Counted from the first letter of the stretch, positions 1-17,551 are shown. The stretch is 46,031 nt of DNA from a virus (IMGVR_UViG_3300042553_000650:1-46031), one strand, 5' to 3'. Made by a program: numbers and translations. The notes: a model not told the origin generated them from the letters alone.

Positions 1-27
1 ACTTGAGACCTTGACCTCAAAAAAATC

Positions 28-57
28 AAAAAAACCGGCGGCCTGATAAGACCGCCG
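28..57 (-). terminator. Rho-independent terminator of the DUF932 gene
   Basis: Read leftward, a CGGCGG/CCGCCG stem (52-57 with 36-41, 10-nt loop) is followed directly by a run of T residues (A-run at 28-34 on the given strand). It begins 14 bases after the stop codon of the leftward gene at 71-859, so it should end that transcript. A similar hairpin follows the neighbouring orphan gene at 1280-1302. Confidence 0.8.
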
Positions 58-70
58 TCAATTCAAGGTC

Positions 71-859
71 TTATGCGGCCTTGATCAATCCGGTTTCGAC
101 TTGACTCGCAAGGTCCCATAAGGCCCGATTGACCTCAAGGTTTCGGTCGATTGACGTGATACGTCGAGCCGAGAGATTGCGGACTTGACCTTGACCGTTG
201 ACTCGAGCATAAGACAGACCGCCTTGCAAGGCATTCTCTTGAACACGATTGAACACGGTCCACAAGTCCCGACCCGTGTCTTCAGACCGTCTCACCTTGA
301 GAAGCGTCTCATGTCGAACCAACGGAATCACGTTTGTATCAATTTGAGACGGAATAAGGATTTTTGAGGCCTCTTTCGCAAATTGAGACATCTGACCGTC
401 TGTCAATTCGATTGACGACCACGTCTCAATCTGAGACGCTATACGGTCGGTCTGTTTTTGAACACGACCGGCGGCCTCAAGGACTTTCGTCAAGGCGTCA
501 CCGACGTGGACGACTCGGATTGACTCATAAGTCTGTCCCACAACGAGACCGTTCGAGCAGACGATGCGGAAAATTCCCATCATGAGACGAAACGCCGCCG
601 TGCCATCGTATGAATTTGAGACGACGATCTCGGGCATGATACCTGATAAGGCCTCGACCTTGAGGTCTGGGTGTCTCAATCTGATAAGGTGTTTTTGAAA
701 GCCTTGCTTCTCAACGTTTCGGACTCGAGCATGCGAGACCTTAGATACTTGATACCCAGCCGCCTCGAATTGAGACACGAGTTGGGCCGTATTGACAGCC
801 TTGTATCGTTCTGATACACCGAAACCCTGATTTTTGTCGAACACTTGCAACTGACTCAT
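71..859 (-). CDS. DUF932/DUF945-family phage-plasmid protein
   Basis: This 262-residue protein resembles the DUF932 (TIGR03299-type) family common on phages and plasmids, whose biochemical role is not established. Family-like features are the NSYDGTAAF stretch at residues 82-90 and the GIFRIVCSNGLVVG core at 95-108. The start is firm because AAGGAG lies 8 bases upstream of ATG. A TTGACT-N17-TAGACT promoter lies upstream and a strong terminator downstream, so it is a single-gene transcript. Codon choice (GTC for Val, AAG, GAG, CGA) differs clearly from the phage genes further right, which favour GTA, GTT, AAA and AGA, and suggests separate acquisition. I infer a DNA-linked accessory role only from the family's usual context. 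Confidence 0.8.
   Translation of the reverse strand: MSQLQVFDKNQGFGVSERYKAVNTAQLVSQFEAAGYQVSKVSHARVRNVEKQGFQKHLIRLRHPDLKVEALSGIMPEIVVSNSYDGTAAFRLMMGIFRIVCSNGLVVGQTYESIRVVHVGDALTKVLEAAGRVQKQTDRIASQIETWSSIELTDGQMSQFAKEASKILIPSQIDTNVIPLVRHETLLKVRRSEDTGRDLWTVFNRVQENALQGGLSYARVNGQGQVRNLSARRITSIDRNLEVNRALWDLASQVETGLIKAA
424..436. promoter_or_regulatory. Operator-like 13-mer TCTCA-N3-TGAGA (intragenic)
   Basis: This perfect 5-bp-arm inverted repeat, TCTCAATCTGAGA, lies inside the DUF932 coding region. It matches the sites at 958-970, 1685-1697 (one arm mismatch), 1798-1810 (two arm mismatches) and 1842-1854. An intragenic copy could be chance or a repressor site within the gene. Confidence 0.4.
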
Positions 860-893
860 TCTGATACTCCTTGTTTGACCGTCCGTCCATCGG

Positions 894-916
894 CGGCCTT
901 ATGATTGACTTATCGG
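894..916 (-). repeat. Leader repeat, copy 1
   Basis: A 23-bp sequence, containing ATGATTGACTTATCGG on the given strand, lies just downstream of the -10 box of the DUF932 promoter. It therefore falls in the 5' leader of the leftward mRNA. It recurs with one mismatch at 1621-1643 upstream of the orphan gene. The two genes thus share promoter-proximal leader sequence, which points to duplication or common control. Confidence 0.7.
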
Positions 917-920
917 TTTC

Positions 921-949
921 AGTCTAAAGAACTTGAGTGAAAAAGTCAA
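921..949 (-). promoter_or_regulatory. Sigma70-like promoter of the DUF932 gene
   Basis: Reading leftward, a TTGACT -35 box (944-949) and a TAGACT -10 box (921-926) are separated by exactly 17 bp. The predicted start site is about 50 bases upstream of the ATG at 859. The 13-bp inverted repeat at 958-970 sits next to the -35 box, a position suited to an activator or repressor. Confidence 0.65.
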
Positions 950-957
950 ATATTTAT

Positions 958-970
958 TCTCAAAGTGAGA
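958..970. promoter_or_regulatory. Operator-like 13-mer TCTCA-N3-TGAGA upstream of DUF932 promoter
   Basis: TCTCAAAGTGAGA is a perfect 5-bp-arm inverted repeat, 8 bp upstream of the -35 box of the DUF932 promoter. Related copies lie at the same relative place upstream of the orphan gene (1685-1697), at 1798-1810 and at 1842-1854. The recurrent placement argues for a dimeric DNA-binding protein. The window does not identify that protein. Confidence 0.6.
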
Positions 971-1331
971 TTCACGCCTGAATTCAAGGCCTTAGACCTC
1001 AAAAAAAATCAATCTGAAAGCCTCAAGGTCAAGGACTGAAACCCTTAAGACCTTATAAGGATAAGACCTCAAGGACTGATAAGGATAAGGGACAGGATAA
1101 GACCGAAACCCATAAGACAGGACCGAAAGCATAAGGATTGATAAGGGACAGGCCGTCAAGGACTGGACCGCCTTAAGGATAAGACCGGACAGACTGGACA
1201 GGATAGGATAAGGTCAACGGGTTTCGGCGCTGTCTTGACTCGGCGGGTTTCGACGCTGTCAACGGCCTTGAAAGCGAAACGGCGGCCTTGACTGGACCGC
1301 CGTCTTGACGCTCGACTTATAAGGTCAAAAA
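971..1331. repeat. Low-complexity intergenic DNA built from short repeated words
   Basis: This gene-free stretch lies between the two leftward genes. It is unusually rich in a few words: by hand count 1021-1320 holds about 21 GAC and 6 GTC trinucleotides and about ten ATAAG pentamers, several times chance. GGATAAG, AAGGACTG and GGGACAGG recur without a fixed period. A 16-bp direct repeat beginning GGGTTTCG occurs at 1219-1234 and 1245-1260 with one mismatch. No tRNA, CRISPR or clear ORF is visible. It could be a protein-binding array, an origin-like element or an unusual 3' untranslated region. Confidence 0.6.
1280..1302 (-). terminator. Terminator-like hairpin after the orphan gene
   Basis: Read leftward, CGGCGG (1297-1302) pairs with CCGCCG (1280-1285) across an 11-nt loop and is followed by TTTCGCTTTC. 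The stem is the same as in the terminator at 28-57, but the U-tract is weaker. It lies 30 bases after the stop of the 1332-1586 gene. Confidence 0.5.
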
Positions 1332-1586
1332 TCACTCAAATTCAGAAAAGTCTCGATTTGATACACCGGCGGACAGGACAGGCATCGAATAGGCCTCATC
1401 GTAAATCTGTATCATTTCGAGACAAAGAGCCTGTACCGTCTCAGAACGAGACACCTTCAAGGCTCGTTCCGCTTTCGACTTATAAGACATGTCGCCACCC
1501 ATTGTTTTCTCATATTGAGACAGTGTGAGTTCGTCTGTCACTTGAGCCCATAAGGTCGCAAGGTTTCGGTCTGTCTGGTTTCGCAT
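1332..1586 (-). CDS. Orphan 84-residue protein
   Basis: I do not recognise this protein. It is small, mostly polar and predicted helical (residues 40-66), with no transmembrane segment. Its codon and word usage match the DUF932 gene and not the rest of the phage. Its upstream DNA aligns with the DUF932 promoter region: a TTTGAGAAT block, a CTCAAGT block and the shared 23-bp leader repeat all occur in the same order. It therefore looks like the second single-gene transcription unit of the same alien module. The ribosome-binding site (GAAAGGCG) is modest. Function unknown. Confidence 0.6.
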   Translation of the reverse strand: MRNQTDRNLATLWAQVTDELTLSQYEKTMGGDMSYKSKAERALKVSRSETVQALCLEMIQIYDEAYSMPVLSAGVSNRDFSEFE

Positions 1587-1620
1587 GGTTTCGCCTTTCG
1601 TTTCGGCCTGTCTTGATTGA

Positions 1621-1643
1621 CGGCCTCATGATTGACTTATCGG
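1621..1643 (-). repeat. Leader repeat, copy 2
   Basis: This 23-bp sequence matches 894-916 at all but one position and lies 35 bases upstream of the orphan gene's start. Flanking sequence on its upstream side also aligns partially with the DUF932 promoter, though the -35 and -10 boxes here are degenerate. Confidence 0.7.
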
Positions 1644-1684
1644 ACAGGACAGACAGGACTTGAGGCCTGAAAGCAAAAAAAGAT

Positions 1685-1716
1685 TCTCAAAACGAGACGA
1701 TTTGGCGATAATGTAT
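1685..1716. repeat. 32-bp direct repeat, copy A, with operator-like 13-mer
   Basis: This copy starts with the operator-like TCTCAAAACGAGA and ends in TGGCGATAATGTAT. It matches copy B (1798-1829) at 28 of 32 positions, at a distance of 113 bp. Its operator part is placed relative to the orphan gene as 958-970 is placed relative to DUF932. The GATAAT inside it could be a rightward -10 box, but no gene lies on that side. Confidence 0.6.
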
Positions 1717-1797
1717 CAGACTGAAACACTATCCAGTGAAGCGCAAGGCCGCTCGACGCTGGACTTTCGAGCGTCAAAATAAAAAAAGAATCGAGCG

Positions 1798-1829
1798 TCT
1801 CAAAACGATACACTCTGGCGATAATGTAT
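1798..1829. repeat. 32-bp direct repeat, copy B
   Basis: The first 10 and last 12 positions are identical to copy A at 1685-1716. A further perfect inverted repeat of the same family, TCTCATTGTGAGA, follows at 1842-1854. The spacing suggests a cluster of binding sites upstream of the orphan gene. Confidence 0.6.
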
Positions 1830-1841
1830 ATTATCACCACG

Positions 1842-1854
1842 TCTCATTGTGAGA
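1842..1854. promoter_or_regulatory. Operator-like 13-mer TCTCA-N3-TGAGA
   Basis: TCTCATTGTGAGA is a perfect inverted repeat. With the site at 958-970 it also shares the following TTC, so the common block is TCTCA-NN-GTGAGATTC. It marks the right edge of the word-biased block. Confidence 0.55.
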
Positions 1855-1951
1855 TTCCCTAGTGGTTACGGGGGGATAGGTCCGCTTGCAGTGAAACGCC
1901 CACACCCTGTGCATAGGGGTCTCCCTCATAATTTTTTGTGAAAATAGTATT

Positions 1952-1966
1952 TGACGCAGTGCGTCA
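1952..1966. promoter_or_regulatory. 15-bp palindromic operator TGACGCA-G-TGCGTCA, site 1
   Basis: The two 7-bp arms are perfect inverted repeats about one central base. The same arms occur at 2191-2205 and 17230-17244, and degenerate versions at 2059-2073 and 2081-2095. The precise recurrence at two loci 15 kb apart is the signature of a regulator's operator. Confidence 0.7.
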
Positions 1967-2057
1967 TAAATTCAAAATGGCAGAAATTTGTCCGACCAGA
2001 GCGTCGAAAAATTTTTTTGACTTGGTGATAATAATTACTTGATTTTTCTACTAGTTT

Positions 2058-2084
2058 TTGACACAGTGCGTCATTTTTTATGAT
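2058..2084 (+). promoter_or_regulatory. Possible rightward promoter overlapping palindrome sites 2 and 3
   Basis: A perfect TTGACA -35 (2058-2063) lies inside palindrome site 2 (2059-2073). A TATGAT -10 (2079-2084) overlaps site 3 (2081-2095), with a short 15-bp spacer. Binding at the palindromes would block it. No rightward gene follows, so any product may be an untranslated RNA, or the match is chance. Confidence 0.35.
2059..2073. promoter_or_regulatory. 15-bp palindromic operator, site 2 (one mismatch)
   Basis: TGACACAGTGCGTCA differs from the perfect palindrome by one base in its left arm. It is followed by a T-run, then site 3 only 22 bp on (start to start), about two helical turns. That spacing favours cooperative binding. 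Confidence 0.6.
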
Positions 2085-2095
2085 GCGCTGCGTCA
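2081..2095. promoter_or_regulatory. 15-bp palindromic operator, site 3 (degenerate)
   Basis: TGATGCGCTGCGTCA keeps the intact right arm TGCGTCA and has two mismatches in the left arm. It is accepted because of its phased spacing from site 2. Confidence 0.5.
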
Positions 2096-2182
2096 TTTTG
2101 AAAAGTTCGGGTCCCTTTTACGAATCCGAATTTTTTTGGAACTTATCTGAAAACTTTCCGGCATTATTTTTTGACTGTCTCA

Positions 2183-2353
2183 TTAACTTTTGACGCAGTG
2201 CGTCATAACGATCTCAGTGCCTACACGAGCACGCACCACAACCAAAGCCAATCCCAGCAGCAATCCAGCACCAGTCAACAGTGCCGCTACTTCGACTCTC
2301 TCCCCTACCCTCAATTTCCTCTTGTCGCCCGTTTTCCACTCCCCTGTCTTCAC
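2183..2353 (-). CDS. Possible small single-span membrane protein
   Basis: A leftward GTG-initiated frame encodes 56 residues: a basic, charged N-terminus (residues 1-20), a strongly hydrophobic helix about 22-40 (VAALLTGAGLLLGLALVVV) and a short tail. This charge-then-helix layout looks like a real N-in membrane protein. Against it, no good Shine-Dalgarno precedes the GTG, and its last codons are formed by the palindrome at 2191-2205. It would be the last gene of the leftward set. It is a hypothesis with no family match. Confidence 0.4.
   Translation of the reverse strand: MKTGEWKTGDKRKLRVGERVEVAALLTGAGLLLGLALVVVRARVGTEIVMTHCVKS
2191..2205. promoter_or_regulatory. 15-bp palindromic operator TGACGCA-G-TGCGTCA, site 4
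   Basis: This is a perfect copy, identical to 1952-1966. It overlaps the 3' end of the possible small membrane protein. Confidence 0.65.
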
Positions 2354-6959: not shown

Positions 6960-7255
6960 GGTATCCCCACGAGCATCTTTGCTAGCTTGGCGCTGCGCTC
7001 GGCAAATTCACCTTTGCGGCGAACTCCGGTGAGATTTCCGAAGTAGCGGACGATCTCGCAGTTGCAAACATTACGTGAATTTAGGTAAATGGTGTTAAAA
7101 CCTTTGGGTAGCTCGTCTAAATAGTTCAAAGTCTGAAACAGCTTTTGCCATTGTTCGTTGGGAAGCCAGATCTCAATGTTGTCATCTTGAGTTTCGGCGT
7201 AGTGCTGTTCCATGAGTCTGAACATTTCATCTTTAATGTGTTGACCGCTCTTCAT
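6956..7255 (-). CDS. Hypothetical protein, 99 residues
   Basis: No family is recognised. The protein is soluble and mixed alpha/beta, with a hydrophilic helical start and a short C-terminal basic helix. Its start overlaps the SET gene by 23 bases and its end overlaps the ribbon-helix-helix gene by four, so it is embedded in the leftward operon. Confidence 0.6.
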   Translation of the reverse strand: MKSGQHIKDEMFRLMEQHYAETQDDNIEIWLPNEQWQKLFQTLNYLDELPKGFNTIYLNSRNVCNCEIVRYFGNLTGVRRKGEFAERSAKLAKMLVGIP

Positions 7256-7604
7256 ATTCCTCCGCTTCCGTAGGGTCGTAGCCGTAGTTGATCTTTAGCT
7301 CTTGACCCTTTCTTATATCTTTTATAGCCCATACCTTGACAAAGGGCAAGCCTTTTTTAAAAAAGGTTTCAAAGTCACAGTTCGGCGTATCAGAATGATT
7401 TAAAAGAGACGTTATCCCTAAAGCGATGGCGCTAGGCGTGTCTTCGGAATCAACTTGAAAGTCATAACGACAAACCGTAGGGCCTTTACGATCATCTGGT
7501 TTAAGTAACATAAGATGATCACAAAGAATCAGCTCGCCCTCTTTAATCGACTTATCGGTATAAACTCCTCTGCCGTATTTATTCTTCTTTACCTTCAAGG
7601 ACAT
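7233..7604 (-). CDS. SET-domain protein (probable protein lysine methyltransferase)
   Basis: The 123-residue protein is a minimal SET domain: GRGVYTDKSIKEGELI (11-26), the SAM-binding and catalytic NHSDTPN (69-75), a strand VKVWAIKDIRKGQEL and the pseudoknot-forming INYGYD (105-110). SET enzymes transfer methyl groups from S-adenosylmethionine to lysine side chains. The post-SET cysteines are absent, as in many short bacterial and viral forms. In a phage it may modify a host ribosomal, transcription or DNA-binding protein. The gene overlaps both neighbours. Confidence 0.85.
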   Translation of the reverse strand: MSLKVKKNKYGRGVYTDKSIKEGELILCDHLMLLKPDDRKGPTVCRYDFQVDSEDTPSAIALGITSLLNHSDTPNCDFETFFKKGLPFVKVWAIKDIRKGQELKINYGYDPTEAEEYEERSTH

Positions 7605-9848: not shown

Positions 9849-10055
9849 TTACTCCTGTTCTTGTTCTAACCTTTTTGGTATGCGAATGTCAAACTCTTTT
9901 ATGAAAAAATTTTCAGGTGTCTCAATTTGCAACAACACGTCTGCCATAGCGCCTTTATAACCCGTATCGTACCCTCGATGCCATGCCTCTAGTATTAGGT
10001 TCAAAATTATCAATATGAGAATCGTTACCCAAAAAGCTTTCCTAAAAAGTTCCAC
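9849..10055 (-). CDS. Small single-span membrane protein
   Basis: This 68-residue protein has one hydrophobic helix (about residues 8-23, FWVTILILIILNLILE) preceded by basic residues and followed by a soluble acidic tail, so an N-in orientation is likely. It starts with GTG, and AGGA lies 8 bases upstream. Function is unknown. Small inner-membrane proteins of this size in phage early regions include superinfection and lysis-timing factors, but no motif supports either here. Confidence 0.6.
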   Translation of the reverse strand: MELFRKAFWVTILILIILNLILEAWHRGYDTGYKGAMADVLLQIETPENFFIKEFDIRIPKRLEQEQE

Positions 10056-15610: not shown

Positions 15611-15863
15611 TTAAAACCTCCTGAGATTTCATATCAATAAACAGGCCGTAAACTCTGCGGTACATTTTTTTATTCATAGAGTTAAGAACTATCGCATCAT
15701 ACTGCGCCAGTACGTAAGGTACTTTTTGTTCCGTGAATCTTTTAATCCAAAACTCAGCTTCTTTTTTACTGGTCATGGGCTCAGTCCACAAATTGTATTT
15801 TTTTAGTTTAATTTTTTTAAGTGCGTCAGTCTCACTTTGAGAAACGATACTTAAGTTCATCAT
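15597..15863 (-). CDS. Hypothetical protein, 88 residues
   Basis: No family is recognised. The protein is basic, with a lysine-rich segment (LKKIKLKKYNLW) and a likely beta-alpha core VPYVLAQYDAIVL. It overlaps the aminotransferase gene by 4 bases and follows it in the operon. Confidence 0.55.
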   Translation of the reverse strand: MMNLSIVSQSETDALKKIKLKKYNLWTEPMTSKKEAEFWIKRFTEQKVPYVLAQYDAIVLNSMNKKMYRRVYGLFIDMKSQEVLNAQQ

Positions 15864-16771
15864 CGGTTTAACCCTCTAGTAGTTTTAACAAACTCATATT
15901 TAAGCATCCGAGTAACCTTTCCGGCTTCGCCGTCAGCTATGTTACGACCATCCACCACAGTAATAGGCATAACTTCCATGTAGGTTCCTGTCAAGAACAT
16001 TTCATCAGCCGTAAAAATATCTGGACGAGTTAGTCGCCGCTCAATTACCTGTAAACCTAGTTCTTGAGCTTTCTGCGCAATCCATTGTCGAGTTAGGCCT
16101 GAAAGGATAGAGCCCGTTTGAGGCGGAGTAAATATAACACCTTGTTTTACGATAAAAATATTAGCAACACTTGCTTCTACAACATAACCATCGTTATCGC
16201 AAAACAAAAGCTCATCAACTCCTTCAAACTCAGTTTTACAGTTATGAAGAACTGCATAATTTGCAGTTGTTTTTGCTTGCATGAAGTATTGTGGGTAGCC
16301 TCGGGGTGTTGAAGATATTCGAGCTTTGAGAGCGACTTTTTCACTAGATTTAAGTGGAAAGCAATAAATATCTACATTGATTTTATTTGATTGGGCTCTA
16401 ACTGATTCGGCATCTTGTGTAGCATACACAATAGGCCTAAGATAAAGATCTCCACCGCCAGCAGCTTCGACGACTTCTTGACAAGCTACAACAAGTTCCT
16501 CGACGGTATACGGAATCTCCATGTTTAGGATTTTTGCTGAGTTAAAAAGTCTTAAAATGTGTGCTCGCAAAAGCCAAACGTGTGTAGTACCGTCTTCTTT
16601 CAGATATGCTCTGATGCCTTCCCAAACAGCCGGAGCGCCGTAATGAAGTACAAAGTTGAAACTATCTATTGTAGTTTTTTTAGCAGAGATCACGCCATTA
16701 GCCCAAACTCGTAAAGATGAGTTTGGCTTGCTCCTGGTGTTTTGTGATCTAGTTTTAAATCCCGCTCCCAT
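15860..16771 (-). CDS. ilvE: Class IV PLP aminotransferase (branched-chain type)
   Basis: The 303-residue protein has BCAT-type motifs: VWEGIRAY (49-56), YLRPIVY (110-116), the PLP lysine K167 in QAKTTANY, E199 in VVEASVANIF, SGLTR (224-228) and TGTYMEVMPI (261-270). These belong to fold-type IV aminotransferases that move amino groups between glutamate and branched-chain keto acids; D-amino-acid transferases are the main alternative. The ATG at 16771 follows GAGGAGGGTT, a very strong site. It is the first gene of the leftward operon, behind a ~410-nt leader. Such an enzyme is unusual in a phage. Confidence 0.88.
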   Translation of the reverse strand: MGAGFKTRSQNTRSKPNSSLRVWANGVISAKKTTIDSFNFVLHYGAPAVWEGIRAYLKEDGTTHVWLLRAHILRLFNSAKILNMEIPYTVEELVVACQEVVEAAGGGDLYLRPIVYATQDAESVRAQSNKINVDIYCFPLKSSEKVALKARISSTPRGYPQYFMQAKTTANYAVLHNCKTEFEGVDELLFCDNDGYVVEASVANIFIVKQGVIFTPPQTGSILSGLTRQWIAQKAQELGLQVIERRLTRPDIFTADEMFLTGTYMEVMPITVVDGRNIADGEAGKVTRMLKYEFVKTTRGLNR

Positions 16772-16983
16772 AACCCTCCTCAAAAATAAGCGTGCGACGG
16801 TGGTTTTACCCACATGTCGGCTTTACCCCGTAGCCGAACCTATCACGTGTACTCACTCAACCCCGTACAATGCCGAGGAGGTTTTACGAGCTTTCTGGTC
16901 AGTGCGTGTCTCCAGTGGCTCGTGAATTTACGGCTCTTTAAGCATCCCGATAGTTCTCGATAAGCACACCACAGCTTTTCACG

Positions 16984-17228: not shown

Positions 17229-17257
17229 TTGACGCATTGCGTCATGAAATCACTAAT
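17229..17257 (+). promoter_or_regulatory. Candidate rightward promoter overlapping the palindrome
   Basis: TTGACG (17229-17234) and ACTAAT (17252-17257) are separated by 17 bp. The -35 box lies inside the 15-bp palindrome, so a protein bound there would block or alter it. Together with the leftward consensus promoter it forms a divergent pair. Confidence 0.45.
17230..17244. promoter_or_regulatory. 15-bp palindromic operator TGACGCA-T-TGCGTCA, site 5
   Basis: The arms are identical to the palindromes at 1952 and 2191; only the central base differs. It sits 12 bases upstream of the leftward -35 box and overlaps a rightward -35 box, a classic position for a switch operator. Confidence 0.75.
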
Positions 17258-17261
17258 GAAC

Positions 17262-17288
17262 TTGACAATTTACATAAATTAGTCTAAT
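17262..17288 (+). promoter_or_regulatory. Rightward promoter of the late operon
   Basis: A perfect TTGACA (17262-17267) is followed by TCTAAT (17283-17288) with a 15-bp spacer. The predicted start lies almost at the ATG of the sigma-like gene (17297), which has no Shine-Dalgarno, so the transcript may be nearly leaderless. TAGTCT overlaps the -10 box and recurs before the gene at 21041. Confidence 0.5.
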
Positions 17289-17296
17289 TTTGAGAC

Positions 17297-17551
17297 ATGG
17301 GTAAAGTAACTCACCGTGATAATTGTAGATGTAATGAAGATCCTGATGCTTGGAGCATTAACGCTCCCGAGTATTACGATTGCTTTTTTACCTATATGCG
17401 GCACAATAGCCGACCTCATACCCTTAATGAAATAGCCAAACTTTTAGGATTGTCTATAGCAGCAGTCACCACAATTGAGAAAAAAGCCTTAAAAAAGGTC
17501 CAAAGACGCTTGACCGATCTTGAGAAAGTAAAAAAGCTAAAAGGCTTGTGA
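17297..17551 (+). CDS. Sigma-70 region-4-like helix-turn-helix protein
   Basis: The 84-residue protein ends in a helix-turn-helix (about 42-70) that closely follows sigma70 region 4.2: TLNEIAKLLGLSIAAVTTIE, then KKALKKVQRRL. Region 4 reads -35 boxes and touches the RNA polymerase beta flap. Regions 1-3 are absent. The N-terminus has C10-x-C12 and is otherwise unique. As the first gene of the virion operon it could be a late-gene activator or an appropriator of host polymerase. No Shine-Dalgarno precedes the ATG, so translation may be leaderless. Confidence 0.75.
   Translation: MGKVTHRDNCRCNEDPDAWSINAPEYYDCFFTYMRHNSRPHTLNEIAKLLGLSIAAVTTIEKKALKKVQRRLTDLEKVKKLKGL

Follow-up and report, generated by a model that had tools for sequence, protein, structure and literature searches.

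The first 1860 bases of the window, the whole 46,031-base stretch that was analysed and that corresponds to one complete IMG/VR virus record, are unusually rich in a few short words, and the question raised by this locus is what such a bias represents. A preliminary description had taken it for an alien, self-contained and perhaps mobile unit of two genes, encoding a DUF932 protein and an orphan protein. The comparison with related phages, the distribution of a palindrome and the promoter-like elements preceding the genes lead to another answer.

Extent and composition of the word-biased DNA

The hand count of 27 GAC and GTC words previously given for positions 1021-1320 was exact (21 GAC and 6 GTC upon recounting). 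Segments of 300 bp contain 12 to 29 such words inside 1-1860, versus a mean of 6.2 and a maximum of 15 in the rest of the contig. Taken as a whole, positions 1-1860 comprise 125 GAC/GTC words, where the remainder of the contig would predict 38.8 (67/kb versus 21/kb elsewhere), i.e., a threefold enrichment, together with a strong depletion in CTA/TAG (7 versus 58 expected) and a 13-25 fold enrichment in GTCTCA, CCTTGA and ATAAGG in the k-mer profile. The GAC/GTC density reaches 68.0/kb in coding and 66.2/kb in noncoding DNA, versus 20.9/kb in the rest, so that the bias spans both kinds of DNA, as had been claimed, and is therefore not a matter of codon choice alone. The boundary near position 1860 is sharp. 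The noncoding stretch between the two genes (1021..1320) is rich in GTC/GAC and mostly fails to align with the relatives. Both this stretch and a segment of a related phage, G002 (L003 7690-8130), are noncoding and built almost only of GTC-containing words such as GTCGAG, GTCCAG and GTCAAGG, accompanied by CTGTCC and CTTATCC, mostly unalignable between phages.

Position 1 is the contig end, and the k-mer profile together with the syntenic biased blocks of relatives identifies 1..1860 as the contig-end part of a larger word-biased compartment, cut at position 1. Relatives of the DUF932 gene, 81% and 76% identical, sit in G001 (78 kb) and G002 (58 kb), two contigs syntenic with most of the window and in which the bias starts at the same place. 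The bias continues for about 5 kb in G002, up to the contig end, and in G001 it is strong for 7 kb and then weak for about 5 kb. A third, near-complete and circularly permuted relative of 118 kb, G003, the capsid of which is 89% identical, possesses a biased block in the same place despite a DUF932 protein only 30% identical, and the bias is therefore tied to the location rather than to particular genes. In this comparison of the window with three relatives (contigs of 58-118 kb), where the window, G001 and G002 are fragments, the block measures 7-10 kb in G001 and G003 and continues 5-8 kb past the part equivalent to the window. It comprises at least 10 genes, namely the orphan, DUF932 and GP88 genes and others, followed by AAA ATPase, rIIA-like and rIIB-like genes, among which the families DUF932 (PF06067), GP88 (PF17338) and the rIIA and rIIB PHROGs were identified. 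A continuation of the same profile leftwards, which the preliminary description had named as speaking against its own reading, thus occurs in the relatives over several kilobases, after which the background composition returns. The observation of biased DNA is confirmed, but its extent as first given is wrong. Positions 1-1860 are best explained as the terminal part of a compartment of 7-10 kb, carried by a myovirus whose genome measures about 118 kb.

Searches for similar DNA in phage and plasmid collections by DNA similarity found none, and a search with the pattern AAAGGAGTATCAAAATGAG yielded no further member of the lineage. With respect to the host, alignment of the capsid found no relative in genome_contigs, the N-terminus of the phage GroEL gave only scattered matches of 34-47% in many phyla, and capsid and terminase indicated no close known phage. 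Among its other genes, G003 encodes a GroEL-like protein (44663-46312), a protein with a PHB/PHA-regulator domain (PF07879, 48000-48278) and an Rrf2-family regulator (PF02082, 80848-81204), and the phage encodes an integrase. On the minus strand of the window occur a SET-domain gene (7236-7604, PF00856, E 8.8e-15) and a class IV aminotransferase gene (15863-16813, PF01063, E 1.6e-45), the latter being kept in the relatives. The SET domain usually corresponds to a protein methyltransferase fold.

Palindromic sites of the compartment

A 15-bp palindrome, GTMTCANNNTGAKAC, was first flagged by gapped-repeat counts. With up to 2 mismatches allowed, it occurs 25 times in the window versus 4.3 expected, and 20 of these 25 copies are located in 1-1860, where pattern count and conservation delineate a field extending over 289..1855 (starts at 289, 336, 375, 423, 535, 574, 608, 673, 762, 803, 853, 957, 1350, 1409, 1438, 1507, 1684, 1713, 1797 and 1841). 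The four blocks contain 231 sites altogether, versus about 4.5 expected from an order-2 Markov model, and the density outside the blocks amounts to 0.1-0.2 per kb. All three reading frames contain sites, coding and noncoding DNA are equally dense in them, and the median distance between neighbours is close to 50 bp. A single compartment contains up to about 80 copies, i.e., approximately one per 50-100 bp, in genes and intergenic DNA.

At fourfold-degenerate positions, the identity between phages reaches 81% in the palindrome arms, a figure that may be inflated by the choice of sites from their letters, versus 46.5% in the rest of the block (p 2.5e-17) and 42% in other genes. The arm conservation persisted in a codon-matched test (odds ratio 2.4, p about 1e-9), and 134 of 265 aligned sites occupy exactly the same position, versus 3.3 expected from their density, shared ancestry contributing to this number. 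Selection on the palindrome arms at synonymous sites is shown by these sequence comparisons. The variable positions of the two arms are independent of each other (p 0.22), which fits recognition by a protein dimer and not an RNA stem; for want of covariation between the arms, an RNA hairpin was discarded as a reading of the palindrome. The earlier proposal that the words might be protein sites finds support in the GTCTCA/GTATCA word family, which behaves like protein-binding sites. The KfrA operator was considered as a relative of the motif and discarded, the match in the literature being only a primer sequence and the KfrA repeat being TGTATTGTA.

Most genes of the dense zone carry one palindrome across their start codon, AAAGGAGTATCAAAATGA, as exemplified by the copy located across the DUF932 start codon (853..867, GTATCAGAATGAGTC on the minus strand), a layout that the relatives share in most genes of their dense zone. 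At the block edge (1797..1855), two palindromes located 44 bp apart surround a conserved GATAATGTATATTATC, with a spacing of 43-44 bp in G001 and G002. Another conserved pair, separated by exactly 88 bp, occurs outside the block in a small membrane-protein-like gene (9919-9933 and 10007-10021 in the window, 50910 and 50998 in G001, 103495 and 103583 in G003). The palindrome is also found beyond the closest relatives. One contig devoid of detectable relationship to the lineage (G007, L144 11286-11368, IMGVR_UViG_3300006527_000002) contains five tandem copies of the GTATCAAAATGAGAC type with a 17-bp period, an array that precedes an exact sigma-28 promoter by about 290 bp, and a distant relative, G008, displays a palindrome field at one end together with two sigma-28 promoters.

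The palindromes and promoters explain only part of the biased words. When the palindromes (up to 3 mismatches) are masked, GTC/GAC words remain enriched about threefold, CGGTC 14-fold and CAAGGC 18-fold, with TpA depleted and CpG raised. Leader and terminator hairpins cover, by inspection, part of these residual words, the GTC-rich noncoding stretches such as 1021-1320 being among what is left over. No consensus emerged when a single longer motif was sought behind CGGTC and CAAGGC.

Genes of the block and their sigma-28-type promoters

According to gene calls made with a simple script, the DUF932 gene (71..859, minus strand) encodes a protein of 262 aa matching Pfam PF06067 with an E-value of 1.4e-37 and a score of 130 bits, versus a curated cut-off of 23. 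The orphan gene (1332..1586, minus strand) encodes a conserved protein of 84 aa, the aligned counterparts from the relatives being 61% and 56% identical, and this protein has no Pfam or PHROG match and no known family. As originally described, both genes possess their own promoter-like element and a leader hairpin of a shared type, located at 877..898 for DUF932 (minus strand, -11.9 kcal/mol, z -2.1) and at 1605..1625 for the orphan gene (minus strand, -10.9 kcal/mol, z -2.0); most orthologous leaders have similar hairpins. The CGGCGG hairpin said to end both genes indeed occurs 3' of each of them, but a real T-tract exists only after DUF932, where it forms an intrinsic terminator (36..57, minus strand, z -3.5), the hairpin after the orphan gene (1280..1305, minus strand, z -2.7) being followed by a weak T-tract. 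Rfam gave no match in 1-2500.

Most block genes are preceded by a match to TAAAGTTT-N11-GCCGATAA, the pattern of promoters of the flagellar sigma-28/FliA type. All 16 positions match upstream of the rIIA-like gene, the rIIB-like gene and another small gene of G001, and upstream of two corresponding genes of G003, and the dense-zone genes mostly carry TCAAGTTT-N11-ACCGATAA. In the window, the putative promoter of DUF932, TCAAGTTC-N11-ACCGATAA (910..936, minus strand), deviates from the consensus at 3 of 16 positions, and that of the orphan gene, TCAAGTCC-N11-TCCGATAA (1637..1663, minus strand), at 4 of 16. The family pattern matches exactly twice in the 46-kb window, before these two genes, versus 0.04 matches expected. 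Considered alone, these two promoters with 3 and 4 mismatches would make a modest case, which is carried by the orthologues, namely the 2-mismatch promoters before DUF932 in G001, G002 and G003 and the 3-mismatch promoter before the orphan gene in G001. Of random 230-bp stretches taken from other phage loci, 0.02% contain a match with 2 mismatches or less.

A search of IMG/VR yielded 94 stretches with the exact pattern versus 5 for the reversed control (about 19 times), and such promoters therefore exist in many phages. Exact promoters of this type, often several per contig, occur in many phages without obvious relationship to the lineage (L143, L145, L146, L194, L195, L214 and others). Most contigs with sigma-28 promoters do not contain the first palindrome. 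The possibility that DUF932 and GP88 genes generally rely on such promoters was rejected, no excess being found in 81 loci. Within the dense zone, no palindrome is centred between -60 and +15 of 17 promoters, an absence that may partly reflect the fixed promoter bases, and the centres are most frequent at +30 to +45.

Possible control of the compartment and comparison with known systems

A candidate for the protein that recognizes the sites is encoded on the plus strand of the window (17297..17551), where the structural operon that runs rightward begins. This 84-aa helix-turn-helix (HTH) protein resembles sigma-70 region 4 (PF04545, E 6.5e-7, 29.2 bits versus a curated cut-off of 24.1, one of four homologues falling just below) and occurs in five relatives. 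Its predicted structure is of low confidence (mean pLDDT 65), and the best Foldseek E-value, 0.79, is not significant. A copy of the first palindrome, GTCTAATTTTGAGAC (17282..17296), adjoins its start codon, in the same position in G001, G002, G003 and L117, and the palindrome adjoins the HTH-gene start codon in five relatives. A second palindrome, TGACGCANTGCGTCA, is represented by four intergenic copies at the block edge (1952..2205) and by the copy TGACGCATTGCGTCA upstream of the HTH gene (17230..17244). In all four phages, its best copies are intergenic and restricted to just these two places, the block edge and the HTH-gene start (62837-63111 and 44103 in G001, 53192-53464 and 36622 in G002, 93231-93505 and 110046 in G003). 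Since this second palindrome occurs both at the promoter of the HTH gene and at the edge of the block, either palindrome may be the site of the HTH protein. The Rrf2-family gene located at 76.4 kb in G001 was also considered as encoding the binder and discarded, no palindrome with 2 mismatches or less occurring nearby.

Judged from sequence, the reading that the analysis tentatively favours, at a probability somewhat short of even, is that of genes driven by the sigma-28 of the host and placed under a field of binding sites that would act downstream of the promoters, like roadblocks. The compartment would mostly consist of single-gene units, each equipped with a promoter of the sigma-28 type and a strong ribosome-binding site, to which a 5' hairpin is often and a terminator hairpin sometimes added. 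The flagellar RNA polymerase of the host would transcribe these genes, which would thus be switched on in the motile state of the host. A dimeric DNA-binding protein, either the phage HTH protein, whose own start codon is adjoined by a palindrome, or a host factor, would occupy the degenerate palindromes across the compartment and block or damp elongation, or access to the start codons, over its whole length, with the result that the block would be shut off or silenced. Since the core promoters themselves carry no site and the DNA downstream of them is densely covered, a block of elongation or of the start codons is most likely, rather than a covering of the promoters. With lesser assurance, and only as a possibility, the DUF932, GP88 and rII-like genes may form an early or host-takeover compartment, tied to a motility or attack-phase sigma factor of the host and silenced as a unit by a dimeric regulator through dense operators that extend into coding sequence. 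The compartment would then be a silenced domain of a prokaryotic kind, specified by sequence-specific sites that lie within genes.

It is rather unlikely, but deserves serious weight, that a host regulator acting alongside sigma-28 uses the palindrome as its operator, in which case the phage would have adopted a life-stage control of its host and its HTH gene would be a mere target. This is suggested by the tandem array of G007 near an exact sigma-28 promoter and by the field of G008, no HTH homologue being detected in either contig, so that a host factor has to be taken seriously; that search was run without a positive control, however, on contigs that may be incomplete. Moreover, about 70-80 sites in one phage compartment far exceed what a host regulon would need, and the palindrome is missing from most contigs with sigma-28 promoters. 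Improbable is a role in partition, packaging or nucleoprotein formation, with centromere-like or DNA-coating sites devoid of any transcriptional function: dense dimer sites recurring regularly over coding DNA, at the median spacing given above, would suit it, but the copies found where the HTH gene and most genes of the dense zone start, and the conserved spacing at the block edge, point to gene control, and the integrase of the phage also speaks against such a role. Slightly less credit still is due to the view that the word bias is only a compositional signature of imported DNA or of a local mutation pattern. The GTC/GAC, CpG and TpA bias left after masking and the shifted codon use agree with this view, which may hold for the residual bias, but the conservation tests contradict it as far as the palindromes are concerned, their arms being selected at synonymous sites; in addition, an import signature should have faded in phages that already differ at about half of their fourfold sites, and the block edge is common to all relatives. 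The alien, mobile two-gene module of the preliminary description, in spite of the promoters and terminator-type hairpins owned by both genes, is very improbable, its left border being simply the contig end inside the block, the pair belonging to a larger block in the same syntenic place in three relatives, and DNA-similarity searches of the phage and plasmid collections having revealed no copy elsewhere.

If the favoured reading of sigma-28-driven genes under a field of sites is true, the gene program of a phage would be gated by the flagellar sigma factor of its host, and the success of infection would depend on the lifestyle of that host. Over many kilobases, protein-coding sequence would be bent so as to accommodate one regulator site per 50-100 bp, a field-like regulation otherwise approached only by the mycobacteriophage stoperators. 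The excess found in IMG/VR suggests that phages with sigma-28-type promoters may be common. No account of a phage compartment functioning as a sigma-28 regulon was found in the literature, where subscription papers mostly lie outside the searchable scope.

Among known systems, the attack phase of Bdellovibrio offers a first term of comparison, FliA driving there many non-flagellar genes, with TTAAG-N16-CCGATA present in 92 of 140 promoters (PMC3627812). Here, the genes that would be driven are phage genes gathered in one compartment; a Bdellovibrio-like predator as the phage host would be a guess. The promoters share with the flagellar sigma-28 type the -35 element TAAAGTTT, the N11 spacer and the -10 element GCCGATAA, and differ by the TCAAGTTT/ACCGATAA form prevailing in the dense zone. 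The DUF932, GP88 and T4-type rIIA/rIIB genes of phages belong to the same protein families as the block genes, but the DUF932 and GP88 genes of other phages, unlike this block, show no excess of sigma-28-type promoters.

The closest comparison is with the L5-type (cluster A) mycobacteriophages, in which more than twenty asymmetric 13-bp operator/stoperator sites, distributed genome-wide in promoters and short intergenic spaces, are bound by a monomer and oriented with transcription, some of them away from promoters, where a block of elongation has been proposed (PMC9283540, PMC6550527). The present field fails two defining features of an L5-type stoperator system: instead of an asymmetric monomer site, it consists of a 15-bp palindrome with independent half-sites, and instead of being dispersed over promoters and intergenic spaces of the whole genome, its sites are concentrated in one compartment, in coding DNA as densely as in noncoding DNA. 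It resembles the L5 system by the numerous copies of one regulator-type site in a phage genome, 231 in the four blocks, and, by analogy, possibly also by its working principle, a block of elongation.
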